From assembly GCA_019358985.1 (NCBI GenBank), contig JAHHIJ010000039.1:1-64000 (forward strand): a stretch of 64,000 nt of DNA, in the 5' to 3' direction. Origin of the DNA: Tolypothrix brevis GSE-NOS-MK-07-07A (GTDB lineage Bacteria; Cyanobacteriota; Cyanobacteriia; Cyanobacteriales; Nostocaceae). Below are positions 16,254-35,100 of this stretch, piece after piece (positions within the stretch are counted from its first letter, which is position 1; each line of letters starts with the position of its first letter). The notes beneath the pieces were generated by a model. That model had not been told where the DNA came from. It saw only the letters and a program-made list of their open reading frames with translations, and searched no databases. The position numbers and the translations under genes were made by a program.

Positions 16254-19200
16254 CTAATTTGTCACCTGATTGGATTCCCCAATTAAGGTAAATGCTGCCC
16301 AATATGACGGTGGTTTATCTTTAAATTTGAGCATTGCTTGGCGTAATGCTTGGGCTTTATCCAGTGGCTTTTGCTTGTTGAGGAGATTTTTATAAAATTC
16401 GGTCATTAATTCGGCTGTGGGTGCGTCGGGGACAGCCCAAAGTGAGACAATTACGCTGGGGGTTCCGGCACTAATTAAGGAACGCGATAAGCCGATTACA
16501 CCGTCGCCAGTAATACGTCCTCTGCCTGTGTTGCAAGCACTAAGAACTACTAAGTCTGCATTGAGTTTCAAGTTGAGAATTTCTTCGGCTGTCAGTAAAC
16601 CGTTGTCTTTGCCTGATGGTGCAAGGGCGATCGCGCTTTGCAAACCTTGGATGTTATCAAATAAGCCGTGGGTGGCAAGATGTATAATTTTAGCTTGGGG
16701 TAATAGTTCTAAAACTGCGGCTTTAGTGGCTTGCTTATCGGTAAGGAGTTTGGTTTTGAGTTTATTTTCCTTGAAAAGAGGTGTAATGGCTTTCGCTTCT
16801 TTTTCTGCTCCCGGTAACTTGGATAAGGGTTGTGCTTCCTCTCCAATTTTTGGCGCTATACTCGGCATGTCGGGATTGCCGACGACTAAGGCATTTTGCA
16901 CAGATGCAAGTTCTTTTGCTCGTTCGTGGGTTAATCCTAGAACCTGAATTGAGGGTGCTGTTAATATTGTGTGTTTTTCAATTAAGTATTTGCCTTGTCG
17001 GTCTTTGAGTGCGGGAAAGGGAACTAAAAATAGTTCGTTTTGGGGGATAAAAATTACACGCTCATTTGGGTCAGTGGGGAGAAGATCGGCGATGGGGTCT
17101 ATTAATATTTCATGGAGTTTTTGTAAGTCTTTGCTGGGGTCATCGTCGGGGGATGGGAAAACTTTGATGGCAAATTGGTCGCGTTTGGCTGCGGTATTTG
17201 GGGGGGTGGAATTTGTTCTTTTGAAAATGCTGCGATCGCGCACTCCTATAGAGTCACGGATATTGTCAATAAGTTCTTCCAGAGTGGTGTTTTCTTTTTC
17301 TAAAAAAGATTTGAGCTTAACTGGGCGGAATGTGACTTCACCTGTAGGTTTAATTACCCAGATGTATATTTGTGAATTTTGCCACTTTTTGTTACCTCTT
17401 GTGTCAAATTTTTCATCAATAAATGAATATAAAATGAGGTTTGCCCGTTGTTGGTCAGCAATTTTTTTAAGTTGATTGATTGTAGGCGATAAACTCTCAT
17501 AATCAGTTTTGTTATTTGTTTGAGAATTTAATAATTCGATAAATGCACGGGCGCGACCACCTTCAGCAACTTCTAATGCATTGCTAATTTTCTCTTGATT
17601 AATTAATACTCTTTGTAGTAAACGATAGCTAACAGTTTGTCTTTCAAAAATTGAAATATTCTCATCATCTTTCAACTTATCTCTTAAAGCATTCCAAGCT
17701 TTAATTGATTTATATAAACTTTCTTCAGCTTCAGGATAATTACTCAAATTCATGTAAGCTTCTCCAATATTGATAAAGCTAATAGCTTCTGATTCTTTAT
17801 CCTGATTTTCGATTGCTAGTTTATTAGCCTCCTTATATTTCTCTAAAGCTTTTTCATTATTACCTTGATCGCTATATACTAATCCTAGATTATTAATAGT
17901 TTTTGCTATCCCATTTTTATCATTAAATTTTCTACGAATAGTTAATGCTTGTTCATAGTATTCTATCGATTTTTCATATTTACCAAGATTCCAATAAGCA
18001 GAGCCAATATTATTTAAGGTTCTACCTCTTAGTCCAGGCATATCGGAACCTGAATTATTCAATATTTTTAACGCCATCTCATATAAATCTAATGCGTTCT
18101 CAGATGCATTTGCAGCTTCTGAAATTCTTCCAAGAAAATTTAAATTACTAACTCTTCCAACAATATCATCTTCTTTAGTATAAATATCTAGTGCTTTTTT
18201 ATGTAGATCAAATGATTTATCGTACTGTGCTAATTTTCCATAAATCTCTCCTAAAGTTTCAAAAATAGGTGCTTTTAAGCTGTCTCTATTTTCTTTAGAA
18301 ATGATGTCTAATGACTTTTCAGCCTCTTTCAATGCCTCGGCATATCTTCCCAATTCAACATAAACTGATGCAACAGATGCTAATCTTTTTGCTTGTTTTT
18401 CAATATCCCTTTGTTCTTCAGCAATATCTATAGCTTGTTGATAAAGGCTTAATGACTCCTCATATTGCTTTTTATTAGCATATACTGATGCCATACTAGC
18501 AATAATAATGCCTTTAAGAAGTTTTTTATCCTCACCTTCTAATTGTTCAATACTTAATAAAGTTTGTTGATAATAATATAGTGCATTATCATCTTCTCCG
18601 AGAGCAGAATAAGTATCTCCAATATAACGGAGAACTCCTGTTTGTATAATATTTTTTATCGGATATTTTTTTAGCATTCCTAAAGCAGGTAATAAATAAT
18701 CCAATGCTTCTTGATACTTATTTTTTTGATAAGAGAAAAATCCTACTTTAAACCAAATTGTTAATTCTGTTTTTACCTCTTCGTTGTTCTTGGGATATGT
18801 ATTTATTTTTTCTATTTCCTGAAATGTGACTAAATATTGTTTATAGTAATTAATAGCTAAATCTTCTTGTTTTAATAGATCGTAAGCGTATCCAATCATG
18901 AGGAAACTAATTTTCCTCATCACGAGGACAGAATTTTGTTCTACTAAATCTCTATATCCTTCTTTTTTTGTAATAGCTAACACATTCTTAAAGCTCTCTA
19001 TTGCTTCTTTAAATTTACCCTCATCAAAGTTTTTCATTCCCAACTGAAAGGATTCAAGTGACTCAAGCTTTTTTTGTATTTCTTGTTGTATATTTTCACT
19101 ATTTACTGGTGTTTGGGCTAATACACTATTTAGCCTATTATTTAGAAATGACAACTGCCAAGAATTATTTTGATTGAGAAAATATAGCCAAAAAGGCTGC

Positions 19201-19262
19201 GAGATACAAAGTAATAAAGCAATAACAAAAATTACAATCAATCTCCGCAGCCCCATCTTCAT
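16254..19262 (-). CDS. Exported TPR-CHAT protease
   Basis: 1002 aa. A hydrophobic N-terminal signal (LIVIFVIALLLCISQPFWLYF) with SVLAQT after it directs export. Residues about 60-580 are tandem TPR repeats (about a dozen, some of the 40-residue type). The C-terminal CHAT domain is a caspase-fold cysteine protease with His in HLATHGLF at about 864 and Cys in VVLSACNTGRG at about 908, both present. CHAT means caspase HetF associated with TPRs. The TPR part would bind partners and the CHAT part would cut them. It is the middle gene of the 20592-13988 unit. Known CHAT proteins work in cell differentiation (HetF) and in defence-linked caspase systems; the substrate here cannot be told. Confidence 0.85.
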   Translation of the reverse strand: MKMGLRRLIVIFVIALLLCISQPFWLYFLNQNNSWQLSFLNNRLNSVLAQTPVNSENIQQEIQKKLESLESFQLGMKNFDEGKFKEAIESFKNVLAITKKEGYRDLVEQNSVLVMRKISFLMIGYAYDLLKQEDLAINYYKQYLVTFQEIEKINTYPKNNEEVKTELTIWFKVGFFSYQKNKYQEALDYLLPALGMLKKYPIKNIIQTGVLRYIGDTYSALGEDDNALYYYQQTLLSIEQLEGEDKKLLKGIIIASMASVYANKKQYEESLSLYQQAIDIAEEQRDIEKQAKRLASVASVYVELGRYAEALKEAEKSLDIISKENRDSLKAPIFETLGEIYGKLAQYDKSFDLHKKALDIYTKEDDIVGRVSNLNFLGRISEAANASENALDLYEMALKILNNSGSDMPGLRGRTLNNIGSAYWNLGKYEKSIEYYEQALTIRRKFNDKNGIAKTINNLGLVYSDQGNNEKALEKYKEANKLAIENQDKESEAISFINIGEAYMNLSNYPEAEESLYKSIKAWNALRDKLKDDENISIFERQTVSYRLLQRVLINQEKISNALEVAEGGRARAFIELLNSQTNNKTDYESLSPTINQLKKIADQQRANLILYSFIDEKFDTRGNKKWQNSQIYIWVIKPTGEVTFRPVKLKSFLEKENTTLEELIDNIRDSIGVRDRSIFKRTNSTPPNTAAKRDQFAIKVFPSPDDDPSKDLQKLHEILIDPIADLLPTDPNERVIFIPQNELFLVPFPALKDRQGKYLIEKHTILTAPSIQVLGLTHERAKELASVQNALVVGNPDMPSIAPKIGEEAQPLSKLPGAEKEAKAITPLFKENKLKTKLLTDKQATKAAVLELLPQAKIIHLATHGLFDNIQGLQSAIALAPSGKDNGLLTAEEILNLKLNADLVVLSACNTGRGRITGDGVIGLSRSLISAGTPSVIVSLWAVPDAPTAELMTEFYKNLLNKQKPLDKAQALRQAMLKFKDKPPSYWAAFTLIGESNQVTN

Positions 19263-19335: not shown

Positions 19336-20592
19336 TTAACTATTAATTTTCTTAATCATCTCATTGGCTTTTTTCGCCTCATCTTGTTTACCCTGCTCTC
19401 GGAATAAATTAGCCGCGACTTGTAAATCAGCAATTCCTTCTTGTTTATTCCCTAAAATTAGAGCGCGAGACATACCGCGATTTAAATATCCCAATGCATC
19501 TTGTGAATCTCTCACCTCCCAAAAAAACGGCGATATTCTACTAGCAGTTTTTTCCATAACTTTTGTTAAAGGTGATTGTAAGCTCTTGTAAAACTTATAC
19601 TTTTCGCTAATTTTTAAAGCTTGCTCATAATTTTCTAATGCCCTTTTAATATCGCCTAATCTACCATAAATTAACCCTAGATTATTACGGTAAGATGCTA
19701 CATTTTTATCTTTTTCGATGGCTCTATTCAAATCTTCTATTGCTCCTTTATTATCTCCTGTGTGAACACGAAGACTTGCTCGTTGTGCATAGACAGAAGC
19801 TTCATCAAATTTTTGATTTATCGCTTGATTTAAATCTTCCATCGCTCCTTTTGTGTTGTCCATTTGAAGCCGAATGATACTTCTAAAATAGTAAGCACCA
19901 GGTTCAGAACCAATTTTGATGATTTTTTCGATATCTTCACTCGCTTGCTTATCATTACCTGAAAGAAGATAAGCGAAACTTCGCATGATATATCCGTTAG
20001 CATTTTCGGGATTTTTTCGTATTGCTTGGCTAGCATTTTCTATTGCCTGCTTATAGTCATCAACAAGCAGCATCACTATCGCTCGAAAAGAATACCCATC
20101 AACAGAATAGTTATTGAGAACTAAAAAGCGATTAGAATCTTCAGTTGCTCCTTTCACATCCCCAGTCATTGCTCTAACCATAGCGCGTATATAGTATCCT
20201 TGTTCGGAATCGGGATTGATCGCTAATGCTCTATTAATATCTTGAATACCCGTCTTATCATCTCCTAAAATAAATTTACTTGTACCTCTAATTAAGTAAG
20301 CATTATCATTGTCTCCATCCGCTTCTATTGCTTTAGTACAACTACTTAATGCTCGCTCATACTCTTTTGATTGATATCGCTTAAAACACTGCTGTAATAA
20401 CTCATCAGCATTTGATTGTGCTAAAAGTAATGTTTGATTTGGTGCGATTTCTAAAGTCTTAACTGAAAAATTATTGCCTACATTTTTGTCTATAGAAATG
20501 TTAGCGATCGCATCCGATTTTGCAGTAAAAATTGTCCCTACTAAACTTAAAGCAACGACAGCAGCGTTGAGACATAAGTATCTAATTTTCAT
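19336..20592 (-). CDS. Exported TPR protein
   Basis: 418 aa. It opens with a signal peptide (YLCLNAAVVALSLVGTIFTAK) and then carries about eight TPR units of 34 residues from about residue 64 to 335 (for example NADELLQQCFKRYQSKEYERALSSCTKAIEADGDNDNAYLIRG is the first by pattern). It has no enzyme domain. It is the first gene of the caspase unit and is preceded by the shared promoter-like element with 28 bases between the element and ATG. A scaffold that brings substrates to the TPR-CHAT protease and the caspase encoded downstream is a fair guess. Confidence 0.75.
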   Translation of the reverse strand: MKIRYLCLNAAVVALSLVGTIFTAKSDAIANISIDKNVGNNFSVKTLEIAPNQTLLLAQSNADELLQQCFKRYQSKEYERALSSCTKAIEADGDNDNAYLIRGTSKFILGDDKTGIQDINRALAINPDSEQGYYIRAMVRAMTGDVKGATEDSNRFLVLNNYSVDGYSFRAIVMLLVDDYKQAIENASQAIRKNPENANGYIMRSFAYLLSGNDKQASEDIEKIIKIGSEPGAYYFRSIIRLQMDNTKGAMEDLNQAINQKFDEASVYAQRASLRVHTGDNKGAIEDLNRAIEKDKNVASYRNNLGLIYGRLGDIKRALENYEQALKISEKYKFYKSLQSPLTKVMEKTASRISPFFWEVRDSQDALGYLNRGMSRALILGNKQEGIADLQVAANLFREQGKQDEAKKANEMIKKINS

Positions 20593-20620: not shown

Positions 20621-20647
20621 ATATCTCCAGCGTCAGGAACTTATGTA
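20621..20647 (-). promoter_or_regulatory. Shared promoter-like element, copy A
   Basis: On the minus strand: TACATAA, 13 bases, GAGATAT, preceded by a T-run. It ends 28 bases before the start codon of the exported TPR gene. It is one of five such elements in the CHAT block; spacing 13-15 suggests -35/-10 contacts of a dedicated sigma factor. Confidence 0.6.
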
Positions 20648-20677: not shown

Positions 20678-23437
20678 TTACTCAGACTCGCCAATCAGCG
20701 TAAATGCAGCCCACTTTCTCGGACTATCAGAATACTTGTCTTTCATTTTCAGCATTGCCATACGTAATGACTGCGCTTTGTCAAGTCTGTTTTTGCTTTT
20801 GTATAAATTCTTATAAAACTCCGTCATCAGTTCAGCAGTAGGTGCATCGGGAACAGCCCAAAGGGAAACGATAACGCTGGGAGTTCCAGCAATAAATAGC
20901 GATCGCGATAAGCCAATTACCCCATCACCAGTAATGCGTCCCCTACCTGTATCGCAAGCACTGAGGACGACTAAATCTGCTTTGAGTTTTTGCTGAAAGT
21001 TCAAAATTTCTTCAGCAGTTAATAAACCGTCGTCTTTCCCAGAAGGAGCTAAAGCGATCGCACTTTTTAAAGCTTGGAAATTATTGAGAATACCGTGGGT
21101 AGCGAGATGGATAATTTTAGCTTGGGGGATTTTCGATAAAACTACGGCTTTATTTGCAGCATCACCAGTGAGTGCTTTTGTACCTAATAATTTAGCGATT
21201 GCATCTGCTTCAAGTTTGGCTCCTGGTAAGTCTGCTAACTTCTGCGGTTCATCCCCAATTTTAGGACTAACACTCGGCATGGTGGGATTACCGACAATGA
21301 GAGTATCAGATGCAGGGGAAAGTTGATTTTTTTGCTTTTGCTGTTGAGTTAACTCTAATACCTGTATTGATGGAGCCGTTAAAATTGTGTGTTTTTCAAT
21401 CAGGTATTTACCCTTTTGGTCTAACAGTGCGGGGAAGGGAACCAGGAATAATTCATCTTGTGGGACAAAAATCACGCGATCGTCTGGGTTGGTGGGGAGA
21501 AGGTCAGCTATGGGTTCGATTAATATGCTGTGGAGCTTTTGTAAGTCTTTGCTGGGGTCATCTTCGGGAGAAGGGAAAACTTTGATTGCAAATTGGTCGC
21601 GTTTGGTTGTGGTGTTTTGGCTGGTGGAATTGGTTCGTGTGAAAATATTGCGATCGCTTACTCCTATAGAGTCACGAATATTTTCAACAAGTTCTTCCAG
21701 AGTGGTGTTTTCTTTTTCTAAAAAAGGTTTGAGGTCAACTGGTTGAAATTTGATTTCACCTGTGGGTTTAATAACCCATATATAAACTTGTGATTTCTGG
21801 GTTTGCTGTTTACCTGCAACTTTAAATTCATCATCAATAATCGAATATTGAACGAAGGTAGCGTTTTGTGATTTGGCGATTTGTTTAATTTCGTCAATAT
21901 TTGGTGGGTTAGGGAAGTTCAGTTTAGAGTTAGCAGATAATAGAGAAGGAAGTGCTGCAAGTGATTCAACAAAAGCCCGTCCCCGTCCCCGTTCGGATAT
22001 TTCTAAAGCAGCATCAGTTTTATTTTGAGCAACGAGAACTTTTTGTAAGGTGCGATAGGTGCTTCTTTGCGTTTCAAAAATGGAAATTTTGTCATCGTCC
22101 TTTAATTCTCTAGCTCGGAGAGATTCATAAACTTTCATGCCTTCAATTAGAGTACTCTCGGCTAGAGTGAGATTTTCTTGTTTATAGTAAGCAAGCCCTA
22201 AATTGTTTAGTGATTGAGCCTCACCTAAACGGTCTTTTATTTTTCTTTGAATAGCTAACGCTTGTAGATGATACTCAATGGCTTTAGGGTAGTTTTTCAA
22301 TGAATAGTAGGCATTACCAAGATTTCCTAGTGCATTACCCTCACCTTCACGGTCTTTAATTTGTCGTGCAATTTTTAAGCTTTGCTGGTGGTAATCAATT
22401 GCTTTAGGGTAGTTGCCCAAAGAACGGTAGGCAATACCAAGGTTTCCCAATGATGTACCCTCACCATTACGGTCTTTAATTTCGCGTGCGATCGCCAACC
22501 ATTGTTGTTGATAAGCAATGGCTTTAGGGTAATCTCTCAAGGAATAGTAGGCATTGCCGAGATTTCCCAATGATTTACCCTCACTTTGACGGTCTTTAAT
22601 TTGTCGTGCAATTTTTAAGCTTTGTTGATGGTAGTCAATTGATTTAGAGTAGTCACCCAAGGAATCGTAAGCAATACCAAGATTTCCCAGTGCTGCACCT
22701 TCACTTTGACGGTCTTTAATTTGTCGTGCAATTTTTAAGCTTTGTTGATGGTAATCAATTGCTTTGGGGTAGTCTCCCAAGGAACGGTAGACAAGAGCTA
22801 GATTGCCTATTGCATTACTCTCACTTTGGCGGTCTTTAATTTGTCGTGCAATTTTTAGGCTTTGTTGATAGTAGTCAATTGCTTTAGAGTAGTCACCCAA
22901 GTAATAGTAGGCAATACCGAGATTTCCTAGTACCTTACCCTCACCTTGGCGGTCTTTAATTTCTTGTGCAATTTTTAAGCTTTGTTGATAGTAGTCAATT
23001 GCTTTGGGGTAATCTCCCAAGGAATCGTAAGCACGACCAATGTTTCCCAGTGATTTCCCCTCACTTTGACGGTCTTTAATTTGTCGTGCAATTTTTAAGC
23101 TTTGTTGATGATGGTCAATCGCTGTGGGGTAGTCTCCCAATGAATTGTAAGCAAGACCGAGATTTCCCAATACACTAGCCTCTCCTTTACGGTCTTTAAT
23201 TTCACGGTAGATTTGTAGTGCTTCTTGCCAAGATTTTAGTGCTACTGTAAATTGACTGGTTTGAAACTGTTGAAGACCTTGTTGTAACAATCGCTCTGCT
23301 TCCACTTTCCGTGCATCTAGCGTCTGCGCTACTACCGCAAACTTCCCAAACACAGGAGCAAAACTAAACCACCAAGGTTGCGACACACAAAGCAACAAAG
23401 CACTAAAAATAATCAGGACAAATTTATGTAATCGCAT
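20678..23437 (-). CDS. Exported TPR-CHAT protease with near-identical repeats
   Basis: 919 aa. Signal peptide FVLIIFSALLLCVSQPWWFSF followed by VVAQT. Residues 82 to about 441 are nine 40-residue TPR units of the kinesin-light-chain type, each like DRQSEGKSLGNLGIAYDSLG plus DYPKAIDYHQQSLKIARQIK, and very similar at DNA level. The C-terminal CHAT domain has His in HLATHGIL at about 780 and Cys in VVLSACDTGRG at about 827. It stands alone as a transcript with the shared element (copy B) 48 bases upstream of the ATG. Its CHAT part is close to that of the 16254-19262 protein, pointing to duplication. Confidence 0.85.
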   Translation of the reverse strand: MRLHKFVLIIFSALLLCVSQPWWFSFAPVFGKFAVVAQTLDARKVEAERLLQQGLQQFQTSQFTVALKSWQEALQIYREIKDRKGEASVLGNLGLAYNSLGDYPTAIDHHQQSLKIARQIKDRQSEGKSLGNIGRAYDSLGDYPKAIDYYQQSLKIAQEIKDRQGEGKVLGNLGIAYYYLGDYSKAIDYYQQSLKIARQIKDRQSESNAIGNLALVYRSLGDYPKAIDYHQQSLKIARQIKDRQSEGAALGNLGIAYDSLGDYSKSIDYHQQSLKIARQIKDRQSEGKSLGNLGNAYYSLRDYPKAIAYQQQWLAIAREIKDRNGEGTSLGNLGIAYRSLGNYPKAIDYHQQSLKIARQIKDREGEGNALGNLGNAYYSLKNYPKAIEYHLQALAIQRKIKDRLGEAQSLNNLGLAYYKQENLTLAESTLIEGMKVYESLRARELKDDDKISIFETQRSTYRTLQKVLVAQNKTDAALEISERGRGRAFVESLAALPSLLSANSKLNFPNPPNIDEIKQIAKSQNATFVQYSIIDDEFKVAGKQQTQKSQVYIWVIKPTGEIKFQPVDLKPFLEKENTTLEELVENIRDSIGVSDRNIFTRTNSTSQNTTTKRDQFAIKVFPSPEDDPSKDLQKLHSILIEPIADLLPTNPDDRVIFVPQDELFLVPFPALLDQKGKYLIEKHTILTAPSIQVLELTQQQKQKNQLSPASDTLIVGNPTMPSVSPKIGDEPQKLADLPGAKLEADAIAKLLGTKALTGDAANKAVVLSKIPQAKIIHLATHGILNNFQALKSAIALAPSGKDDGLLTAEEILNFQQKLKADLVVLSACDTGRGRITGDGVIGLSRSLFIAGTPSVIVSLWAVPDAPTAELMTEFYKNLYKSKNRLDKAQSLRMAMLKMKDKYSDSPRKWAAFTLIGESE
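22115..23194 (-). repeat. Nine tandem 120-bp coding repeats
   Basis: The TPR part of the 919-aa CHAT protein is made of nine 120-base units with long identical stretches (for example ATTTGTCGTGCAATTTTTAA recurs on the plus strand). High DNA identity means recent amplification or gene conversion; copy number may vary between strains. Confidence 0.75.
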
Positions 23438-23485: not shown

Positions 23486-23514
23486 ATATCTCACATATCA
23501 GGGGGACTTGTGTA
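23486..23514 (-). promoter_or_regulatory. Shared promoter-like element, copy B
   Basis: On the minus strand: TACACAA, 15 bases, GAGATAT, preceded by a T-run, 48 bases before the ATG of the 919-aa TPR-CHAT gene. It is the most divergent copy, with one change in the first half. Confidence 0.55.
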
Positions 23515-23532: not shown

Positions 23533-24291
23533 CTAGGGCAACGTAGAAACCGCAGCCTGCTTTGGATTACAAAAGTTATGTCCTTCAACATTCTTGATAG
23601 TATCCACTAATTGTGGTGATGGATTCTGCACCGAGTAAAGCTGTTCTAATACATCTGTCCACATTTCTTTCTTAGCGAAATAATCAGCTTTCTCCAGAGC
23701 AATTTTTTCTACAGTAGCTCCTTTCTTTTTGAGCGTTGCTTCCAACTTTGTCAAGTCATCTGTGATACTCGCTCTTTCTTTATTACCCATCATTGTAAAA
23801 TTAGAACCAGAGTCTTTGATAGGGAGTCCTCTGACTTTTTCAGCTGTAATTTGCCATGCATAAGACTGTCCTGGTTGCAATGGTTTACCATTATATTTAA
23901 TCTTTGTTAACCCTTCTTTGACTTTTAAAGTTGCAAAAACTTCATCCTTTCCCCTTTCAAAGATATCAATTTGCGTAACCCCTAAACCTCGCCAAAGAAA
24001 TACAGGTTTATCCGTCCAAATTTCCTCGGTTCCTTTTTGTTCATTACTCGAATCGACTAATGCTTGCGGAAGAATTGCACAAATTTCTCCTTTTCCTCCT
24101 CCCGGAGTTTTACGACGACGAAAGACATTAAAAATATCAGCCCAGGAAAATGCTAAATATGAATTATTAGTTATTTTTGGTAACTTTCTATTTTGTTGTT
24201 TGATAGCAGCTTCTATTGGTAAGCTCGACAAAAGAGAAAGTGTTAAGAACAAAAATGCAAAATTCAAACCTAAATATTTCAGGCTATTCAT
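23533..24291 (-). CDS. DUF928-like exported protein
   Basis: 252 aa with a signal peptide (FAFLFLTLSLLSSLPIEAA). The middle resembles DUF928: a GGGKGEICAILP start, a beta-rich region with KPVFLWRGLG and LQPGQSYAWQITAEK, then a helical end with TPR-like character. DUF928 proteins are cyanobacterial secreted proteins of unknown role, often seen with CHASE2/CHAT genes. The ATG overlaps the end of the CHAT-CHASE2 gene by 8 bases, so translation is coupled and a joint function is likely. Confidence 0.65.
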   Translation of the reverse strand: MNSLKYLGLNFAFLFLTLSLLSSLPIEAAIKQQNRKLPKITNNSYLAFSWADIFNVFRRRKTPGGGKGEICAILPQALVDSSNEQKGTEEIWTDKPVFLWRGLGVTQIDIFERGKDEVFATLKVKEGLTKIKYNGKPLQPGQSYAWQITAEKVRGLPIKDSGSNFTMMGNKERASITDDLTKLEATLKKKGATVEKIALEKADYFAKKEMWTDVLEQLYSVQNPSPQLVDTIKNVEGHNFCNPKQAAVSTLP

Positions 24292-26755
24292 TAGATAATC
24301 TCCTCAAAGTAAAGTGTATGTATTTCCAAAAGACAATAGAAGGTAAAAACACAGGAAATAAAATATATCCTGATATATATAACTGGAATGAAGTTAAGAA
24401 ATAAATAATAGTATTTGCAAATACAACTTTCATTAATAATTTTTGATTTTGAGGATTATCAATTAAATATAATGACACACCTTTGGCGAGTAAAGCTGCT
24501 AATAAAATCATTAAAAAATCGGGAACTGGAACCACCAAATGTTTATTAAGTAAATGATGAACCATATAAGCATGACCTTCTCCTTTAGAAAAATTCTTCT
24601 CAAAATCAAAAATTGATTGCTTTCTCCAGTAAGCTATTGCCCAAGGATTATTTCTGTTATCTTCCCCAGTGCCAGTTAAACCTGCTTTAGCGTATCCTCC
24701 AGGTGCAATAATAACGATATATTTATCTAAGTTTTTTGGTATCTTCTCTTCTTCCCCTCGACTATCCAGCAATTCACGAGCAGATATACTTTTATAAGCT
24801 TGAATGGGGGAAATAGAAAAGTCTATAATTGGATGAAACCAGCCTGTCAAATGTGAAATAGGCTTTAAACGAAGATTTTTAATAAAATTAGCTTCTTCAT
24901 ATTTTCTATTATTAGCCGTGTTAATAAAATTCAATAACTCTTTTGTAGTATTAAAATTTTGCTGTGAATACTGATTGACACTGGAATCATTTAAACGTGA
25001 ATTTTGCCAGATATAAGCTAGTGATAGCATATAACTAAAAGGAAGAGGATATTCATCTGTATAATGTTGGTTTATTTCTGGCAATTCTAAATACCCATCA
25101 AAAAAATAAATATCTCCATTGATACTCCAGTCTAAAGCAGAAATTTGATTACTTACTTGATTCTCTGTTTTGTCTTGTTCTTGTTTATCATATCCAAATA
25201 TAAACCAAGAATTTTTAGCAACACCATTGCGAATTGCATCCTTCAGATTGCTAACATTATCCGGTTGTGTTTGATTTTCAACTTCACTTAGAATATAATC
25301 AATACCAATTAATTGAGCATTTTTGTTAGAGAGTGTTGTAATAAGTTGTGCTAAATAACTATAATCTAAGGGATGAAATTTTTGAAGAGGTTTTTGTTTC
25401 TGAGCTTCCTTTAGTGAATCATCATCAATTTTTACCAACAATAAAGGTGCTTGTTTAATGACTGATTTTATTGGTGTAATTTTTTGACGATAAATAGCTT
25501 GCACTAAAATACGTGGTTCAAGTAATAAACTCTGTACTCCTGGCAATAAACTCAAAAGTAATAATCCACCAAGCCATTTTGCCTCTAATTTTGTAGGGAA
25601 CCATCGCTTAATCTTTGAAGTAATATTAAAAGGTTGAATCTGAAATAATTCAGCTTCTGGATGACGAAATAAGGACGGAACCAAATAAGCAGAAGGATAA
25701 GAAACGCGCTTTTCATCTTCTTTCAGCAACTGACTTGCATCTAACAAAGCAGTGTGAACATCTTTATGTTCAGCTAAACTCTGAAGAAACTTAACTAAAA
25801 ATATCTGTGCAACTTGGTCGTGAATGGGTTCCCGCATCACCGCAACTTGACTCAACCCCAAATTAATCAAAAATTCAGCAATATTGATTCCATTACAAGA
25901 ACTAAAAATAGCGAATTGCAATCCTCGTTTCCTAGCTACTTTGAGCGAACCTTCTATTTCTTGCATTGATAATGCAACCCCTGGTGCAATTCCTAATTCC
26001 CCTCCTGTAAGTTGAGTTTCGTTACTATGTCCAGCAAAAAATAAGATGTCCCAACCTCTTTCATCGGAAATCGCTTTGATGATTTGATGTTTGAGTGCAT
26101 TAGCATCAAAATTTGTGGCATCTGTGCTTTTATTCCAACCAGCAAACTTAACATCAACGATAGAATTTAGAGATTTTACAGCTTGTTTATCATCTTCCAA
26201 ATCTAAACCGGTATCATCTCCTAAAATTGCTAAAACTCTAATTTTGTGACGAACTGGATGTATTGCTTCATTAGAAATATTAGCAGGACTACGAGCAATA
26301 CGTATTTTTTTTGGTGAATCAGAATCTGTATCAAAATAAATATCCCAACTTTCCCAAGGAAGTCTTGCTATTTCAATAGGTGTACAAGTGAGGAAAATTT
26401 CAACAGGTTGTTTTTCCGAAGTTTGGTTTACTGCTTTAGTAATTGTACGATTTATGCTAACCAATTCAGGACTTAACAACCATTGCTGGAACTCGCTCAA
26501 TAATTGAGCTTCTGTCTCTACCAGTTGTTTATGAAAGTCTCTAGGTGCGCTTCCAGTACCGCTTATTCCCTTTTTCCCTCGCAATCTCACATAATAATCT
26601 AAATACGCTCTATGCCATTTTTCATAACTTTGAGTTAGGGAGAAAGGATAGTTAACATTAACATCAATAACTAGACCATCACCCCAACTTAATTCAAAAT
26701 TACAAGTTGAAGTAATTTGTCGAACTTTAAGTTTAAAAATAGTATTGTTAGTCAT
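24284..26755 (-). CDS. Membrane CHAT-CHASE2 protein
   Basis: 823 aa. The N-terminal half is a CHAT domain with His in LFFAGHSNE at about residue 242 and Cys in FSSCNG at about 287. A membrane segment follows (LEAKWLGGLLLLSLLPGVQS, near 400), then an extracytoplasmic CHASE2 sensor domain (starting around PRILVQAIYRQKI, with LLLVKIDDDSL and IGIDYILSE), then two or three C-terminal membrane spans. So the protease part would be cytoplasmic and the sensor outside, the reverse location of the exported CHAT proteins of this block. It suggests a receptor that turns an outside signal into proteolysis inside. It is the third gene of the unit starting at 29577. Confidence 0.85.
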   Translation of the reverse strand: MTNNTIFKLKVRQITSTCNFELSWGDGLVIDVNVNYPFSLTQSYEKWHRAYLDYYVRLRGKKGISGTGSAPRDFHKQLVETEAQLLSEFQQWLLSPELVSINRTITKAVNQTSEKQPVEIFLTCTPIEIARLPWESWDIYFDTDSDSPKKIRIARSPANISNEAIHPVRHKIRVLAILGDDTGLDLEDDKQAVKSLNSIVDVKFAGWNKSTDATNFDANALKHQIIKAISDERGWDILFFAGHSNETQLTGGELGIAPGVALSMQEIEGSLKVARKRGLQFAIFSSCNGINIAEFLINLGLSQVAVMREPIHDQVAQIFLVKFLQSLAEHKDVHTALLDASQLLKEDEKRVSYPSAYLVPSLFRHPEAELFQIQPFNITSKIKRWFPTKLEAKWLGGLLLLSLLPGVQSLLLEPRILVQAIYRQKITPIKSVIKQAPLLLVKIDDDSLKEAQKQKPLQKFHPLDYSYLAQLITTLSNKNAQLIGIDYILSEVENQTQPDNVSNLKDAIRNGVAKNSWFIFGYDKQEQDKTENQVSNQISALDWSINGDIYFFDGYLELPEINQHYTDEYPLPFSYMLSLAYIWQNSRLNDSSVNQYSQQNFNTTKELLNFINTANNRKYEEANFIKNLRLKPISHLTGWFHPIIDFSISPIQAYKSISARELLDSRGEEEKIPKNLDKYIVIIAPGGYAKAGLTGTGEDNRNNPWAIAYWRKQSIFDFEKNFSKGEGHAYMVHHLLNKHLVVPVPDFLMILLAALLAKGVSLYLIDNPQNQKLLMKVVFANTIIYFLTSFQLYISGYILFPVFLPSIVFWKYIHFTLRRLSNE

Positions 26756-26831
26756 TTTAGTATTTCTTATCTTAATTATTTTTAATTTTTTATTACTATG
26801 TAATTTAATAATTTTATCTTTTCATTTTTCT

Positions 26832-28172
26832 CTATTCTCTAACAAATGCAAACGGATTCAACGTCCTCACTTCACCATTGGATGAGGTGAACGTTACCAA
26901 AAACTTATCTTCATAATTACCAATAACTTGAGCAAAGATATAATCATGATAAGTATTTGGTTGTAACTGTTCTTCAACTAAAATTTCATTTTGGTCGCTG
27001 ATTCGTAAATTTAAGCTGTAAGGTATTTGATTTCCAGGAAGAACCTTTAGCACTACTAATAATGTCCATTCATCATCAGGTAAAGACCAAACAGCAGCAT
27101 AAACTCGTAGAGGAACTTCTAGGACAATATCTTGATGAAAATAATTAGCTATATTCGGAATTACGAGATTGCGTCTAATTTCTGCGAGAATACCTTCTAA
27201 TTCTTGGCTTAAATTTGAGGATTCACGTATTGGACTTGGAAGTGCATTTGCTAATTGTCCCTGTATCGGTGACATTTGCCAAGAGAATGCTTGCATCACA
27301 TCATCAATTTGGTTATCTAACCAACGTTGAACATTTACTGCTTGTTGACTGACCATTTGCATAAAATCTGATAAATGCAAAGCAGATATTTGAGAATTTG
27401 TAGTGGAATTGTCATATAACCATTTCACTAATTCAGGATTTGTAAGAATAGCTATACCCTGTTCCCAAGTTAAAACTTCCCAGAGTTGACGGTTATTTAG
27501 TTGAGGTAATAAATTCACAAGTTGTCTCTGCATTTGAGCTAGAATACTTTGACGATTATTCGGAACTTCTGCTAAAGGTATTGTAGCAGGTGAGTAACAT
27601 TGCAAGTACATTAATAATTCGTCAATTTCGTGATTAAATAAAGTTAAAGATGATTGATAAGTCCAATCTTTCTCTAGCTGAAATCCTGATTGATTATCAA
27701 TCAAGTCGCTATAACGGATAAATCCTTTAATAGCAGCGATTTCTAATTCTTCTTCTATCGCAATAACTATATAAAAATGAGCATTAAATTCTGGTATATC
27801 AACTACTGCTCTCGAAATAGTAACTTCATCCTCACTAAAAGAAATAATTGGGATTAAACAAATTTTAAACTTACCTACTTGTAAATTATAAACAGCATTG
27901 ATCAGACTAGCATATTCAGGTTTTAATATTGAAGATATTTCTTGATGGATAGTGTGATAAATAGAAAGTGATGGTTCTCGTTTCTCCAGCCATTCTGCAA
28001 ACGCAAATAAAGCCAAAGCTTGAAGGTAAACCTGCCATTGTTTCCCCTCTATCCTGATATTTTGACTAATCTGTAAAGCCTTTTCGCATTGTTCAGGTTC
28101 TAACTCGATAGTTTCAATATGCTCTGGAAAATCAAATAAATCATCAATAAAATCATTTAAATTATTATTCAT
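26832..28172 (-). CDS. DUF1822 family protein
   Basis: 446 aa, no signal or membrane span. The N-terminal part fits DUF1822 (IELEPEQCEKALQISQNI, then WQVYLQALALFAFAEWLEKREP), a cyanobacterial family usually encoded directly behind a sigma-like gene and before CHASE2/CHAT genes. The function is unknown. The gene begins one base after the sigma-like gene, so the two products probably act together, perhaps with DUF1822 as its regulator (anti-sigma-like); this is inference. Confidence 0.75.
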   Translation of the reverse strand: MNNNLNDFIDDLFDFPEHIETIELEPEQCEKALQISQNIRIEGKQWQVYLQALALFAFAEWLEKREPSLSIYHTIHQEISSILKPEYASLINAVYNLQVGKFKICLIPIISFSEDEVTISRAVVDIPEFNAHFYIVIAIEEELEIAAIKGFIRYSDLIDNQSGFQLEKDWTYQSSLTLFNHEIDELLMYLQCYSPATIPLAEVPNNRQSILAQMQRQLVNLLPQLNNRQLWEVLTWEQGIAILTNPELVKWLYDNSTTNSQISALHLSDFMQMVSQQAVNVQRWLDNQIDDVMQAFSWQMSPIQGQLANALPSPIRESSNLSQELEGILAEIRRNLVIPNIANYFHQDIVLEVPLRVYAAVWSLPDDEWTLLVVLKVLPGNQIPYSLNLRISDQNEILVEEQLQPNTYHDYIFAQVIGNYEDKFLVTFTSSNGEVRTLNPFAFVRE

Positions 28173-28173
28173 A

Positions 28174-29577
28174 CTATCCTCTACTACGATTTAAGTAGTA
28201 ACAAATATATTCACAAATAGTCCTAGCCATTTTACTATTCATAGTTTGCCTTTGTCCGTTTCTCGCTTCTTGTTCTGCTTCTTGAATCACAGTTTGAATT
28301 TCCTTTTCTAAAAAAAATTGTACTTTCAATTCCCAATCTGGAGGTAAATCATAATCGAATTGAGCTTGAATTAATTTTAAAATACATTGTTTCAAACACA
28401 ATGAAGTGTTACGACCAATATCATTACGTAAACCTTTCAATTCCAACAAACGGCTAACATAAGGTTGGTCAATTAAATTTAAACGAGGAGCAATTTCTGT
28501 CATCGGAACTCCTTCACAGTGAAATAAATGCAGTGCTTCGACAAAATTCTTTAATTTTTTTTGAGATTTAGCAGTTCTCTTGGCTTGAAAATATGTAATT
28601 CTTGCTTCAACAACTTTTTTGACAGCACCAGTAAAACACCCATCAAATGAAGAATTATATAATCCCGAAAACTCTGATTGTTCCTCTTCACTATTATGAT
28701 TTTTTTCAGGGATATTATCCCAAGAATCTTGAGGATTTATCGATGTTGTTCCTTGCCTAACTCGAATACGTTCTTCTCGGAGATAATGAGCGACATTTTG
28801 TAATTTACTACGAACATCTTGGAGAACATCTGGAGGATAGTTTCTACGGTTAGGAAATAATTTTTCCGCAATTTGACGTAACTGTTCATCCGTCGGTTCT
28901 GGATATCTACTTTTAGTACCAGCTTGCCGAGTTTGCAGTAGCTGACTACGATAAATTTGGTGATAAGTATCAAGTAATTGCAATGATTGTTGAATTTCTC
29001 CTGCACTACAACGATTATTTTTGAGAATTTTTTCTAATTTTACAGGTGTTATATAGCTAAGAATCATCCAATCGGTAACTTGCTCTATTCTATGGTGTAA
29101 TAATAATTGTTTGACTTCTTTATCGCTTTTAAATATCCTAATCGTCCAAGTCGAGAGATTGCTCTTTTCGGCATCGAATGTTTCTAAAATACGATTAATT
29201 AAACTTGAAGGATTAGAGGTAGAGGAATTCGGCATCTCTTCAATTTTTCGAGATTTATCCAAAACAAGAAGTAATATGTGATTACTTGTCAAGTCATGGG
29301 TTTTACCAAATTTGCCCTCTAATCGAGTAGAAATATTGCGGAGTTGGTTGGATATAAAGCAACGCAGACATAGCTCCGCCATTTGACGACGGTTGTCGTC
29401 ATGACGCAACCACAGCATGAGTTGACGTTGAATCTCCCGATCTGATACATCATTACCTGGACTGAATTGAGGAAATTCTTGCTGAAAAAAAGCTTTAACC
29501 TCGTTCAATTCAATACTTTGACATCTACTTAAACCAATAACCCTCACCCATATCCAGTATTTCGACACCACTCCCAT
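28174..29577 (-). CDS. Sigma-factor-like transcription protein
   Basis: 467 aa, soluble. The first 100 residues hold helices with sigma region 2-like character (LCLRCFISNQLRNISTRL is one). Near residue 340-370, HLFHCEGVPMTEIAPRLNLIDQPYVSRLLELK looks like a helix-turn-helix of sigma region 4. Homologues in cyanobacteria are found at the head of DUF1822 and CHASE2/CHAT operons and are often called sigma-70-like. The assignment is by weak pattern and context. It starts its own operon and carries a copy of the shared element upstream, so it may drive itself and the other four units. A non-sigma DNA-binding role is the main alternative. Confidence 0.6.
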   Translation of the reverse strand: MGVVSKYWIWVRVIGLSRCQSIELNEVKAFFQQEFPQFSPGNDVSDREIQRQLMLWLRHDDNRRQMAELCLRCFISNQLRNISTRLEGKFGKTHDLTSNHILLLVLDKSRKIEEMPNSSTSNPSSLINRILETFDAEKSNLSTWTIRIFKSDKEVKQLLLHHRIEQVTDWMILSYITPVKLEKILKNNRCSAGEIQQSLQLLDTYHQIYRSQLLQTRQAGTKSRYPEPTDEQLRQIAEKLFPNRRNYPPDVLQDVRSKLQNVAHYLREERIRVRQGTTSINPQDSWDNIPEKNHNSEEEQSEFSGLYNSSFDGCFTGAVKKVVEARITYFQAKRTAKSQKKLKNFVEALHLFHCEGVPMTEIAPRLNLIDQPYVSRLLELKGLRNDIGRNTSLCLKQCILKLIQAQFDYDLPPDWELKVQFFLEKEIQTVIQEAEQEARNGQRQTMNSKMARTICEYICYYLNRSRG

Positions 29578-29773: not shown

Positions 29774-29800
29774 ATATCTCTGAGACGTTGAGCTTATGTA
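29774..29800 (-). promoter_or_regulatory. Shared promoter-like element, copy C
   Basis: On the minus strand: TACATAA, 13 bases, GAGATAT, preceded by an A/T run. It lies 196 bases before the sigma-like gene, leaving a long leader. It is divergent from copy D, 76 bases away on the other strand. Confidence 0.55.
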
Positions 29801-29876
29801 TTTTTTTTTGTTCCCACGCGAGAAAAATATTGACGACCGTGAAAATACTTATACAGCAAAGATTTGACCCTTTTTT

Positions 29877-29904
29877 TACATAACCTCTGAAGCTCTGGAG
29901 ATAT
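29877..29904 (+). promoter_or_regulatory. Shared promoter-like element, copy D
   Basis: TACATAA, 14 bases, GAGATAT, preceded by seven T, ending 37 bases before the ATG at 29942. With copy C it forms a divergent promoter region between the sigma-like operon and the small secreted protein. Confidence 0.6.
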
Positions 29905-29941: not shown

Positions 29942-30427
29942 ATGAACTTCAAACGAACCGGAGCGATCGCACTTCTCTCTCTAACTGTGGGATTGTTTGG
30001 TATTGAGTCAGCAAATGCGAAAAACCCATTAACGGAAGTACCTGTAACCGCACCTTCCAATTATATTGCTCAAGTGACTGATGCGAGTAATCCAATTTAC
30101 GGAAGCTGGAAATTAAGACACAGCGTTGATGGAATTGTCTATGAAAGCGTTCTCGTGATGAAGGGATTTTCGGGAAGCATGAGAACCAGATATTACCATC
30201 CCAGCTTAGGAAAGCAAGCTGTAGACCAAACAATGTATCTTAAAAATTCGCCAGATGGATTAGTTTTATTGGGATACAGTCCCGTTTACGCTGGAACCAA
30301 TAGAAAACATCCCACTTATTCTGCCGATAACTTTTTATTTGCAATTGAGCCTGATGGTAGTGCAAAAGTTGAAACTTGCGATGATTCACGACAATGTTCT
30401 GCTGTAACTGCACAAACCATTAGATAG
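29942..30427 (+). CDS. Small secreted protein, unknown
   Basis: 161 aa with a signal peptide (TGAIALLSLTVGLFGIESANA, likely cut after ANA). The mature part is beta-rich: IYGSWKLRHSVDGIVYESVLVMKGFSGSMRTRYY, a pattern of lipocalin-like or similar small barrels, and it contains one Cys pair (TCDDSRQC). No known family was recognised. It is expressed from promoter-like copy D, so it may be an output or substrate of the exported proteases. An 11-bp hairpin follows it. Confidence 0.65.
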   Translation: MNFKRTGAIALLSLTVGLFGIESANAKNPLTEVPVTAPSNYIAQVTDASNPIYGSWKLRHSVDGIVYESVLVMKGFSGSMRTRYYHPSLGKQAVDQTMYLKNSPDGLVLLGYSPVYAGTNRKHPTYSADNFLFAIEPDGSAKVETCDDSRQCSAVTAQTIR

Positions 30428-31980: not shown

Positions 31981-32067
31981 CATGATTTTTCATCAAAATT
32001 ACTTTGAATAGAGAAAATTTTCTTGAAAATAAAACTTTAGTTTAGCCCGTAATTGTCAGATTTTTTT

Positions 32068-32095
32068 TACATAAGCTCCGAAATGTGGGAGATAT
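32068..32095 (+). promoter_or_regulatory. Shared promoter-like element, copy E
   Basis: TACATAA, 14 bases, GAGATAT after eight T, ending 41 bases before the ATG at 32137. It lies inside the open frame that could start at 32053, which argues for the later start of the CHAT gene. Confidence 0.6.
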
Positions 32096-32136: not shown

Positions 32137-35100
32137 ATGAATTTTCCTCTGTGCTGTCTTAGCGTGCTTACTGCTACTGCATTGCTATCGCTGAGTTTTC
32201 CGCTAGAAATGGCTGGGAATACTTGGGGAAGTAGTACAGTTGTGGCACAGACAACAGGCGATCGCAAAGTTGAAGCTTTACTACTTTTAGGAGTCGGAAG
32301 TGATTTTTTAAAAGCTGGTCAATTAAAGGAAGCTTTAGCCGCATTAGAGAAAGCTTTAGTCATTACTAGAGAAACAGGCGATCGCAAAACAGAAGGTCTT
32401 GCTCTCATGGCTATAGGGAGCTTCTACGAAAATATAAGAGAATACCCTAGAGCTTTAGATTATTATCAACAAGCTTTAACTGTTACGATGGTTACTAAAA
32501 ATAAAGATATCGAAGGCAAAACACGTAACAATATTGGCTGGGTTTACTTCAATTTACAACAATATAATACAGCGTTAGAATACTACCAGCAAGCCTTGAC
32601 TATTGCTAAACAAATTGGTGATGAAAGAGATATAAGTATCAGAATTAGAGGTGTTGGGCTAGTTTACTATAAACAAGGGGAATATCCTAAAGCTTTACAA
32701 AGCTATAATCAGGCTTTAGCTATAGCCCGGAAAATAAAGGATGAAGAGGGAGAGGGAATTAGTCTGGGTAATATTGGAGAAATTTATAAAAATCAAGGGC
32801 AATATGCAAAAGCGTTAGAGACTTATAACAAAGCATTAGCTATTTATAAAAAAAATAATGATGCGAAAAAGATAGCTGATACCCTTAGCAGTATAGGAGA
32901 GGTTTATTTCAAGCAAAAACAATATTCTCAAGCATTAAATTACGAACAAGAAAATTTGGGTATTCGTCAAAAAAATCGTGACAAAAATGGAGAAACTTTA
33001 GCCCTAGTTGGGATAGGTAATATTTATCTTATTCAAAAACAATACTCTCAATCACTAGATTACTATCAAAAAGGTCTAATTCTTGCTAAACAGAATGGAA
33101 GAAAATCTCAAGAAATTTTAGCTCTTAGTAATATAGGACAAGTTTATCAAAGTCAAAGGAATTTTCCTAAAGCTTTGGAATTTCATAACACAGCTTTAAT
33201 TATTGCTCAAGAGATGGGTAATGCACCACGGGCAAATGAATTGCTGCTCAGTATTGGCAAAATTTATGCATTGCAAGAAAGGTATGCTAGTGCTTTAGAA
33301 CATTATCAGAAATCTCTAATCGTAGCTCAGAAATTTGGATATCAAGCTAGAAAAGCTTATTCATTAAACGCTATTGGCGTAATGTATCGCAAAGTAGGAC
33401 AGTATCGTAAAGCTTTAGATATTTATCAGCAAGCTCTAGATATTTATAAACAAGTTGGCAGCAAGGATGGAGAAGGTATAACTCTCAATAATATTGGTAC
33501 TGCTCATAATGGTTTAAAACAATATTATGATGCAGAGAAATATTATCAAGCTTCTTTAGAAATTTCTCAACAAACTGGGGATAAAGTAGAAGAGAGTGAA
33601 AGGCTAAAAAATCTTGGTTTAGTTTACCATTACCAGCAGAAATTTACCGAAGCATTAAATCATTACAATCAAGCTCTAGGCATTGCTAAACAATTGAATG
33701 ATAAGGGAGGAGAAAGTACAACACTTCATAATATTGGTGGAATTTATTTGGATACAGGAAACTATCCTAAAGCTATAGAATACTATCAAAAATCTTTGGC
33801 AATGACTAAGGAAATAGGCTCTAAAGAATGGGAAAGTTTAACACTTAATAATGCTGGAGCAGCATATGTGGCTATCGGTAAATATCCCGAAGCTGAAAAA
33901 ACTTTATTTTCTGCGATAGAAACTAGGGAATCTTTACGAGATGGTTTAAAAGATGACCAAAAAATCTCAATTTTTGAACAACAATCTGCCTCTTATCGCT
34001 TTTTACAAAAAGCATTAGTTGCTCAAAATAAAATCGAAAAAGCTTTGGAAATATCAGAAAGGGGACGTGCTAGAGCGTTTGTAGAGTTATTAGCTTCAAA
34101 ACAGTCACAAGATACTGAGAATAAACAAAATACTAAACCCAATATTCAGCAAATTAAACAAGTTGCTCAAGACCAAAAAGCAACTATTATCCAATATTCT
34201 ATTGTTCCATCTAATGTTAAATATGTACAAGAAAAAGGAAAGCAAGAATTCCGTCCATCACAAGAGTATGTTTGGCTCTATATCTGGGTAGTTAAACCCA
34301 CAGGAGAAATTACATTTAAACAAGTAGATTTAAAATCCTTCAATACATCATTACAAGACTTAGTTATCAACAGTCGTGATTCTATTGGTGTCAGAAGTCG
34401 GGATATGTTTGATATTAAAGTGATAAATCCTCAACCTGAAGACCCAACTGAAGAATTAAAACAACTGCATAAAATCCTCATTGCACCTATTGCTAATTTA
34501 CTACCGAAAGACCCAAACGAGAAAATTATTTTTATTCCTCAAGAATCCCTCTTCCTAGTTCCCTTCCCTGCATTATTAGACGATAAAGGTAAATATTTAA
34601 TTGAAAAACATACTATCCTGACAGCACCATCAATTCAAGTCTTAGATTTAACTCGCAAGCAAAAACAAAATTCCTTCAAGATTGAAACATCAAACAGAAA
34701 TACAGCATTGGTAGTCGGAAACCCCACCATGCCAAAAATTAAGATTGGTGATTTAGAGTCAAACTTAAAACCTCTTCCCGGTTCCCAAAAAGAAGCTCTT
34801 AAAATCGCTAAATTTTTCAATATTGAAGCACTTACAGGTAGCAAAGCAACTAAAAGTTCAATCATGCAAAAAATGGAGCAAGCAAGCATCATTCATCTAG
34901 CTACCCACGGCTTGCTTCATGATTTTAAGGGCTTTGGTGTTCCAGGTGCGATCGCATTAGCTCCTTCTGGTAATAAAAATGATTCAATTGATGGTTTACT
35001 TACCGCAGGTGAAATTCTGGACATGAAACTAAAAGCTGATTTAGTTGTCCTCAGTGCTTGCGATACGGGACGGGGAACAATTACAGGTGATGGAGTAATT

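Follow-up and report, generated by a model that had tools for sequence, protein, structure and literature searches.

A conserved four-gene locus of Tolypothrix brevis may link a CHAT-CHASE2 receptor protease to a divergent sigma factor

Receptor-linked caspase-like proteases of bacteria have mostly been discussed as parts of death or defence systems with no output assigned to them. The passages of PMC8195603 (eLife 2021) on the closest described systems report EACC2-caspase proteins with variable C-termini, CHASE2 included, which are encoded beside an extracytoplasmic function (ECF) sigma factor gene and a DUF1822 gene, and propose a control of transcription. In the text of PMC10028731 on Craspase, Csx29, which carries a CHAT domain, cuts Csx30, the inhibitor of CASP-sigma, and motifs of CASP-sigma occur in its own locus, and the part of PMC12288457 concerned with Anabaena reports that PatU3, a protein that keeps the regulator HetZ in check, can be cut by HetF. 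A CHASE2 gene beside a DUF928 gene was noted once in the relevant passage of PMC5587647, in a Nostoc punctiforme cluster, and a metacaspase on CHASE2 is described for Trichodesmium in a passage of PMC3501461, where the protease domain sits on an outward-facing receptor with four membrane helices. Here we analyzed a stretch of 64,000 nucleotides from Tolypothrix brevis GSE-NOS-MK-07-07A (contig JAHHIJ010000039.1, positions 1 to 64,000 of the forward strand; hereafter the window), in which the genes for a sigma-like protein, a DUF1822 protein, a CHAT-CHASE2 protein and a DUF928 protein follow one another.

In the reading that we propose for these genes, DUF928 and the CHASE2 part would form a sensor at the outer face of the membrane, and this sensor would switch on the cytoplasmic CHAT domain, a cysteine protease in the same protein. 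DUF1822 would act as an anti-sigma factor that holds a divergent sigma-70 factor until CHAT cuts DUF1822, the likeliest place being the flexible loop that joins its two folded parts (around residues 300-316), and the cut would free the sigma factor. The freed factor would then read a bipartite promoter, made up of a T-run, ACATAA[G/C][C/T]TC, 8-11 bases and [A/G]AGATA, before its own gene and before neighbouring genes, whose products (a TPR protein, TPR-CHAT proteins and a small protein) are probably all exported, and the net outcome would be a receptor protease that induces a group of exported CHAT proteins. The sequence itself shows the gene set with its conservation, the sigma-70 homology, the intact dyad, the constancy of the sigma-DUF1822 pairing and the motif with its positions; the sensing, the cleavage, the anti-sigma role and the reading of the motif by this sigma factor are what we infer, and we put such a one-operon signalling system at a little under an even chance. 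A wider proposal, held more tentatively, is that of a protease-to-sigma-to-protease cascade in which the receptor protease cuts a new class of anti-sigma factors and DUF1822 is the general sigma partner in a large cyanobacterial family of switches with exchangeable sensors. With a sigma factor and a candidate promoter as the output, the receptor, protease, inhibitor and promoter could be tested jointly in a simple reporter assay, and functions are suggested for three so far unnamed families: DUF1822 would be the partner of sigma and DUF928 the outer partner of CHASE2, while the third family is a branch of sigma factors missed by standard models. An earlier sequence-only reading of this DNA had already proposed a sensing module in which CHASE2 perceives an outside signal, the inner CHAT cuts DUF1822 or the sigma-like protein, and a regulon turns on; the sigma homology, the DUF1822 pairing and the CHAT dyad agree with it, but the protease-DUF928 pair and the sigma-DUF1822 pair each also stand alone, which speaks against a simple fixed chain.

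Conservation of the gene set and the divergent sigma factor

The list of open reading frames (ORFs) bears out the four genes, their order and their spacing as the sequence-only reading had described them, with a 1-base gap between the sigma and DUF1822 genes, a 76-base gap between DUF1822 and CHAT-CHASE2 and an 8-base overlap between CHAT-CHASE2 and DUF928; the span it gave, 24284-29577, takes in the first three genes but only 8 bases of DUF928. Homologues of the sigma-like protein were present in 24 of 59 related genomes and, in named cyanobacterial genomes, in 80 loci that were kept as the best 80 of 168 confirmed. Removal of near-copies led to 87 distinct loci, the window included. DUF1822 followed the sigma gene within 500 bases in 76 of the 82 distinct loci having 1.5 kb of flank. 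Among the 63 with 6.5 kb of flank, DUF1822 stood beside the sigma gene in 59, a CHAT-CHASE2 gene lay within 9 kb in 51, and DUF928 came directly behind CHAT-CHASE2 in 46. The commonest spacing of the last two genes was exactly the 8-base overlap (27 of 51 pairs from distinct loci), and because the compared ORFs begin at the first start codon, some longer overlaps may conceal the same spacing. The order recurs in most of the 87 distinct loci, and the four-gene arrangement exceeds chance.

Some variation was observed around this arrangement. In some loci (e.g., L046, L080 and L099) a TPR-CHAT gene lies between DUF1822 and CHAT-CHASE2, and in one locus (L088) the order is DUF1822, CHAT-CHASE2, DUF928 and sigma last, a rearrangement which favours a functional linkage of the genes over the inheritance of a single arrangement. 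That the four genes are mere neighbours without a common function is very improbable: the 76-base gap could hold a promoter and gaps reach hundreds of bases elsewhere, but the order and the 8-base overlap are conserved over the 87 distinct loci.

None of the four proteins had a match in NCBIfam at E 0.1, and the sigma-like protein had none over the cut-off in Pfam. Genes at the same place before DUF1822 elsewhere in this genome match TIGR02937 over the cut-off (4.3e-31 for L039 on contig C72 and 5.9e-29 for L037 on C15), and a relative whose sigma protein is 47% identical to that of the window (L042) matches it at 5.3e-4, below the cut-off. In hhalign, a profile of 68 homologues of the window protein aligned with 20 DUF1822-linked sigma factors (99.2%, E 8.3e-20, 386 columns); these 20 include L037 and L039, the seeds of the iterated search that gathered them, and were checked against TIGR02937 for some members only. 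The structure model of the protein had a predicted local distance difference test (pLDDT) of 89.9. In the comparison by VIA-align, each of the 50 rows shown was the sigma chain of an RNA polymerase complex, with Z of 6.4-8.6; the tightest was 8dy9_F (Z 8.3, 106 residues, 3.4 A), which covers the sigma-2 part at model residues 14-163. The uniformity of this list is a stronger point than its Z scores. With a modelled sigma-2 fold and a sequence homology to accepted sigma-70 factors that takes in the region-4 helix-turn-helix, the 467-amino-acid protein is a divergent sigma-70 homologue, in keeping with the transcription protein of the sequence-only reading, and it has long extra parts unlike typical ECF factors. 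A second long divergent sigma-DUF1822 pair lies on contig C11 of this genome (L041), its sigma protein being 33% identical to that of the window; there, a gene for a TPR-CHAT protein of 1852 amino acids stands between DUF1822 and a CHAT-CHASE2 gene.

Of 117 genomes sampled from the phylum, 81 have DUF1822; many of the matches in family f38 are weak and partial. For the pairing analysis, 80 DUF1822 loci were chosen by hand from 150 listed rows, with this genome, the weak partial f38 matches and several fragments excluded. A sigma-family gene lay directly upstream, within 400 bases, of 70 of the 80 DUF1822 genes (26 classical, 14 long divergent and 30 short), and the other 10 had no recognised sigma gene at that place. 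By NCBIfam alone, TIGR02937 was matched at E 0.001 by 34 of 76 genes upstream of DUF1822; in the short class 15 of 24 members matched it at E 0.1 or better (best 2.4e-11), and in hhalign the short family gave no more than a local match to the other two classes. In a tree of 95 DUF1822 proteins, 85 of them with a classed sigma gene, the sigma class switches twice, which is the fewest switches that three classes allow, whereas 16 changes are seen over 84 rows in the type of gene that follows DUF1822; this indicates that sigma and DUF1822 descend as a unit and that what follows them, a sensor or effector, is replaced. When 61 of 70 downstream genes were scanned (the largest were left out), CHAT was found in 42 and CHASE2 in 29, and the next gene was DUF928 in 18 of 51 cases. 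A CHAT-type gene of this family lay directly behind 45 of the 80 sampled DUF1822 genes. DUF1822 is thus encoded with its sigma factor as a standing genetic partner. We regard it as a candidate anti-sigma factor that would bind and inhibit that sigma factor.

The DUF1822 model (pLDDT 89.4) consists of an N-terminal alpha/beta-helical part, a low-confidence stretch at about 291-320 and a C-terminal immunoglobulin-like (Ig-like) sandwich, and in fold comparison the Ig-like part alone gives matches. The anti-sigma sensor domain of RsgI4 (7cg5, Z 6.1) was among these rows and was not used, as many unrelated Ig-like folds appear there too. On the wider family, the loci L167-L220 carry minimal sigma factors of 210-260 amino acids, which are largely missed by Pfam and which, throughout the sample, go with DUF1822 proteins of the short class. 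In small-genome cyanobacteria, proteins of about 1000 amino acids (e.g., L238, 2890-6141) weakly match the first half of DUF1822, one of them with a TonB-type C-terminus.

The protease-receptor and the DUF1822 loop

The CHAT-CHASE2 protein matched Pfam CHAT with E 2.7e-10 (40.6 bits against a cut-off of 24) and Pfam CHASE2 with E 2.5e-13 (50.6 bits against 26.3). Cys-287, which the sequence-only reading had chosen for a control mutant, is found in FSSC287NG and is accompanied by His243 in FFAGH243S. Both residues are invariant in 15 of 15 aligned proteins, and the His and Cys motifs are kept by all 62 of 62 distinct CHASE2-type proteins. In a wider CHAT set, which includes other C-termini, 105 of 116 proteins fit a stricter dyad pattern; some of the failures are due to the pattern itself, and others seem to be without the His/Cys pair. 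The CHAT domain is a putative cysteine protease with an intact His/Cys pair. From hydropathy, the segments at 394-412, 747-765 and 786-804 are predicted membrane helices that flank CHASE2, and the predicted layout is that of a cytoplasmic N-terminal domain followed by CHAT and CHASE2. The N-terminal region before CHAT is conserved in the 15 aligned proteins and may be an EACC2 domain. When solved structures were searched with profiles made from the alignments of the sigma, CHAT-CHASE2 and DUF1822 proteins, no credible match emerged.

The DUF928 protein is a marginal member of its Pfam family (Table 1). A hydrophobic N-terminal stretch in its hydropathy profile suggests that it is probably exported, as the sequence-only reading had it in calling the protein secreted. 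In 12 hand-picked genomes, 46 of 66 DUF928 genes lay within 3 kb of a CHASE2 match, compared with 0.82 expected by random placing; 45 of these 46 are on the same strand as CHASE2, 24 of them downstream. Because DUF928 travels with CHASE2 in this way, it is likely the outer partner of CHASE2. Elsewhere in this genome, in the pair at L233 (4197-7471), the DUF928 gene is overlapped by 4 bases by the CHAT-CHASE2 gene, and a second copy of equal score lies at G000:C41:284827-287660.

That CHAT cuts DUF1822 is suggested by analogy, with Craspase and with the pair of HetF, a CHAT protein, and PatU3. The candidate region is the loop between the two folded parts. A pattern of a hydrophobic residue, Arg and one of Ser, Asn, Gly, Gln or Thr was found in this loop in 78 of 118 DUF1822 proteins of less than 70% identity, compared with 18.9 expected on shuffling, and it is enriched across all sigma classes; the stretch corresponds to residues 298-335 of the window protein, which are poorly ordered in the model. 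According to PMC6426788, orthocaspases cut after positively charged residues, and according to PMC11106740 the cuts made by Craspases are A|S, L|D and M|K; because these preferences differ, the loop pattern decides nothing on a CHAT site. A first count had suggested a link of the pattern to the protease gene, which a better alignment and linkage definition erased, and the pattern was dropped as evidence for a CHAT site.

CHAT might instead cut the sigma factor, in the low-confidence linker that separates its modelled sigma-2-like and sigma-4-like parts, or cut itself free of the membrane, so that proteolysis would end the response or move the protease. The linker at 281-294 would offer a place for the former, but a cut there would divide the two promoter-binding parts and should inactivate the factor; for the latter, an activation as autopeptidase is proposed in the passage of PMC8195603 on these proteins, and the Arg-Ser pattern occurs in 1 of 15 linkers between CHAT and the membrane, yet known CHAT sites need no such pattern. 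Taken with both forms, we consider this course unlikely.

A promoter-like motif and its neighbourhood

A conserved block before the sigma gene is common to the window, Calothrix membranacea (L057), Calothrix brevissima (L059) and Amazonocrinis nigriterrae (L058). A first genome-wide search that tolerated up to 3 mismatches returned mainly noise (37 + 19 matches against 14 + 20 in the control), and its best matches after the sigma site included a site 29 bases upstream of the TPR gene at 20592. A merged pattern gave 5 matches in 6.52 Mb, of which 4 were in the window and one of these (32069) was new, against 1 and 2 in the control. The C variant seen in the relatives was then built into the final pattern, ACAYAASYYCN{8,11}RAGATA, which has 5 matches in the 6.52-Mb genome, all of them in the window and 29-197 nucleotides before a start codon, with 0 and 0 in the reversed control. 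A pattern made from the sites of the sigma genes alone found 4 of the 5 window sites (not 23513); among all compared loci it occurred solely in L057, L058, L059 and this window, and it had no match in 3.84 Mb of random sequence of the same composition. The background count for the motif was 4 matches in 2.33 Mb.

In the three relatives the motif precedes the sigma gene and a looser form stands 35-38 nucleotides before a TPR-CHAT gene; two further sites (L057 -2523 and L059 -6401) lack a clear ORF shortly downstream. The motif was absent from L042 and from the regions of the other DUF1822 copies of this genome, including L041. The protein encoded at 29942 had no blastp match in L057, L058, L059 or L042, so that this target is not shared by homology. 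For the TPR-CHAT gene at 32137 the ATG was preferred over the listed TTG at 32053, since the motif falls in the interval between these two codons and the ATG is followed by a signal-peptide-like stretch. The AAC[C/T]TC ... AGATA layout resembles that of an ECF promoter, which fits autoregulation. Within this genome the motif is confined to the window, and this suggests that the sigma factor switches on its own operon and the neighbouring genes for exported proteins, a candidate for the regulon that the sequence-only reading had called for. The sigma gene and the ORF at 29942 diverge (region 29820-29900), with back-to-back copies of the motif at 29878 on the forward strand and 29799 on the reverse strand. 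A scan of the region for the sigma-70 consensus gave no excess (36 found against 39 expected) and was set aside.

Several observations weigh against the one-operon system as we propose it. Regarding the gene set, 5 loci keep the protease without DUF928 directly behind it (51 against 46), sigma-DUF1822 pairs are also found without a protease gene, other exceptions stand alone (L043 and L125), and contig C26 of this genome (L233) has a CHAT-CHASE2/DUF928 pair with no adjacent sigma or DUF1822 gene, from which it follows that the sensor-protease can serve other targets. Regarding the sigma factor, Foldseek with the model gave no match at E 0.001, and Z values of 6-9 are modest where the protein is helical. 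Regarding the loop, the Arg pattern did not go with linkage of the protease gene (present in 46 of 62 with a linked gene and in 25 of 31 with an unlinked one, p 0.61), a comparison of independent pairs showed no trend of the pattern with the protease gene, the nearest relative of the window (L058) has no Arg in its DUF1822 loop, and the clade of the window itself departs from the pattern; on these grounds the pattern may be structural. Regarding the motif, it was refined stepwise, refining it on its own sites is partly circular, and the site at 23513, before the TPR-CHAT gene at 23437, was added by eye; a crude test of promoter sharing by local alignment over 35 other sigma loci gave no signal (mean percentile 0.515), so that the motif is established for the clade of the window only.

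Some of these observations would agree with DUF1822 being a co-factor or chaperone of the sigma factor instead of its inhibitor, in which case CHAT would act elsewhere, for example on the neighbouring TPR-CHAT proteins or on a distant target, and the operon would merely co-express a receptor protease and a regulator. The frequency of sigma-DUF1822 pairs without a protease gene, the protease-DUF928 pair that stands without them and the loop pattern untied to the protease all fit this explanation, but the CHAT-type gene directly behind 45 of 80 DUF1822 genes and the widely kept four-gene order do not, and we consider it somewhat unlikely.

The features of the locus and of its surroundings are collected in Table 1. 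The genome has 53 CHAT matches in total. A counter-invader or cell-death system, with the protease as a sensor of infection and the sigma factor as the driver of a suicide or defence programme, would be in line with the NACHT-type, caspase-domain and WD40-CHAT proteins in the window and with the passage of PMC8195603 that places such neighbourhoods among conflict systems. The four proteins had no match in PADLOC, the predicted targets resemble exported proteins and not cytoplasmic toxins, and the receptor faces outward, and such a system appears quite unlikely to us.

Table 1. Features of the four-gene locus, the motif sites and the surrounding genes in the window
Feature	Position	Strand	Details
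DUF928 gene	23533-24291	-	252-amino-acid ORF; Pfam E 4.2e-6, 27.1 bits, cut-off 26
CHAT-CHASE2 gene	24284-26755	-	823-amino-acid ORF; Pfam CHAT and CHASE2 both over cut-off
Putative catalytic pair of the CHAT-CHASE2 protein	26027-26029 (His243); 25895-25897 (Cys287)	-	
DUF1822 gene	26832-28172	-	446-amino-acid ORF; Pfam E 1.6e-42
DUF1822 interdomain loop with Arg316	27225-27275	-	residues 300-316; pLDDT means 53-60; candidate cleavage region
Sigma-like gene	28174-29577	-	467-amino-acid ORF
Sigma-2-like part			about residues 14-163 of the 467-amino-acid protein; modelled fold
Low-confidence linker			residues 281-294, between sigma-2-like and sigma-4-like parts; model
Sigma-4-like helix-turn-helix			about residues 336-394; modelled fold
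Motif	29775-29799	-	197 nucleotides before sigma ATG
Motif	29878-29903	+	38 nucleotides before ORF at 29942
Motif	32069-32094	+	42 nucleotides before ATG 32137 of TPR-CHAT gene
Weaker motif copy, ACACAAGTCC	23487-23513	-	49 nucleotides before TPR-CHAT ATG 23437; overlaps terminator-like hairpin 23505-23475
Motif	20622-20646	-	29 nucleotides before TPR gene ATG 20592
TPR protein	19336-20592	-	418 amino acids, probably exported; Pfam, hydropathy, motif upstream; predicted regulon member
TPR-CHAT protein	20678-23437	-	919 amino acids, probably exported; Pfam, hydropathy, motif upstream; predicted regulon member
Small protein	29942-30427	+	161 amino acids; signal-peptide-like start (by eye), no Pfam match; motif upstream; predicted regulon member
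TPR-CHAT protein	32137-35340	+	Pfam, motif upstream; start and signal peptide judged by eye
NACHT-type NTPase	6883-10518	+	upstream of the cluster
AAA/PIF1-like helicase	11803-13236	-	upstream of the cluster
Caspase-domain protein	13988-16204	-	738 amino acids; same neighbourhood
TPR-CHAT protein	16254-19262	-	1002 amino acids; same neighbourhood
WD40 protein with C-terminal CHAT	35951-42799	+	2282 amino acids; same neighbourhood

Comparison with known systems

Among the closest known systems are the EACC2-caspase systems, whose proteins, in the passages of PMC8195603, have an N-terminal alpha+beta domain, a caspase-fold domain and a variable C-terminus such as CHASE2, with adjacent sigma and DUF1822 genes; the window likewise has sigma and DUF1822 genes side by side and CHASE2 as the variable C-terminal sensor. 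Some differences were observed. Those passages call DUF1822 a TPR protein, whereas Pfam finds no TPR in the DUF1822 protein of the window and its model, with alpha/beta-helical and Ig-like parts, rules that assignment out here. The sigma factor of the window belongs to the long divergent branch in contrast to the ECF sigma factor of the systems described there, and the text of PMC8195603 on them makes no mention of DUF928 and gives no promoter or regulon, whereas the window has DUF928 and a candidate promoter and regulon.

Similar to the locus described here, the type III-E Craspase system (Csx29-Csx30-CASP-sigma), as presented in the text of PMC10028731, combines a CHAT protease, a sigma inhibitor and an ECF-type sigma factor in one locus, where the cut relieves the inhibition, and in both cases motifs bound by the sigma factor, or candidates for them, lie within the locus itself. 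A key difference is that Craspase senses RNA with Cas7-11 and has TPR on its CHAT protein, whereas the window has a membrane receptor and no TPR in the CHAT-CHASE2 protein, and no Cas gene was seen among the window ORFs scanned. The DUF1822 profile, searched against solved structures at E 10, gave no Csx30 chain among 16 weak matches, and a distant kinship is possible. The III-E sigma model was weakly matched by 9 of 76 genes upstream of DUF1822 (best 4.7e-8), which may reflect general sigma likeness.

In HetF-PatU3-HetZ, according to the part of PMC12288457 on this system, a cyanobacterial protease can cut the restrainer of a regulator, the difference being that neither a sigma factor nor a CHASE2 sensor takes part. 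The Nostoc punctiforme and Trichodesmium cases are single ones, and the passages on them in PMC5587647 and PMC3501461 name no sigma-DUF1822 partners. A search of the open-licence literature gave no paper on the four-gene set with DUF928, on the constancy of the sigma-DUF1822 pair or on the promoter. The kind of system to which this locus would belong was already predicted in the passages of PMC8195603, and what is new here is the promoter-like motif, the fixed set with DUF928 and the constancy of the sigma-DUF1822 pair.

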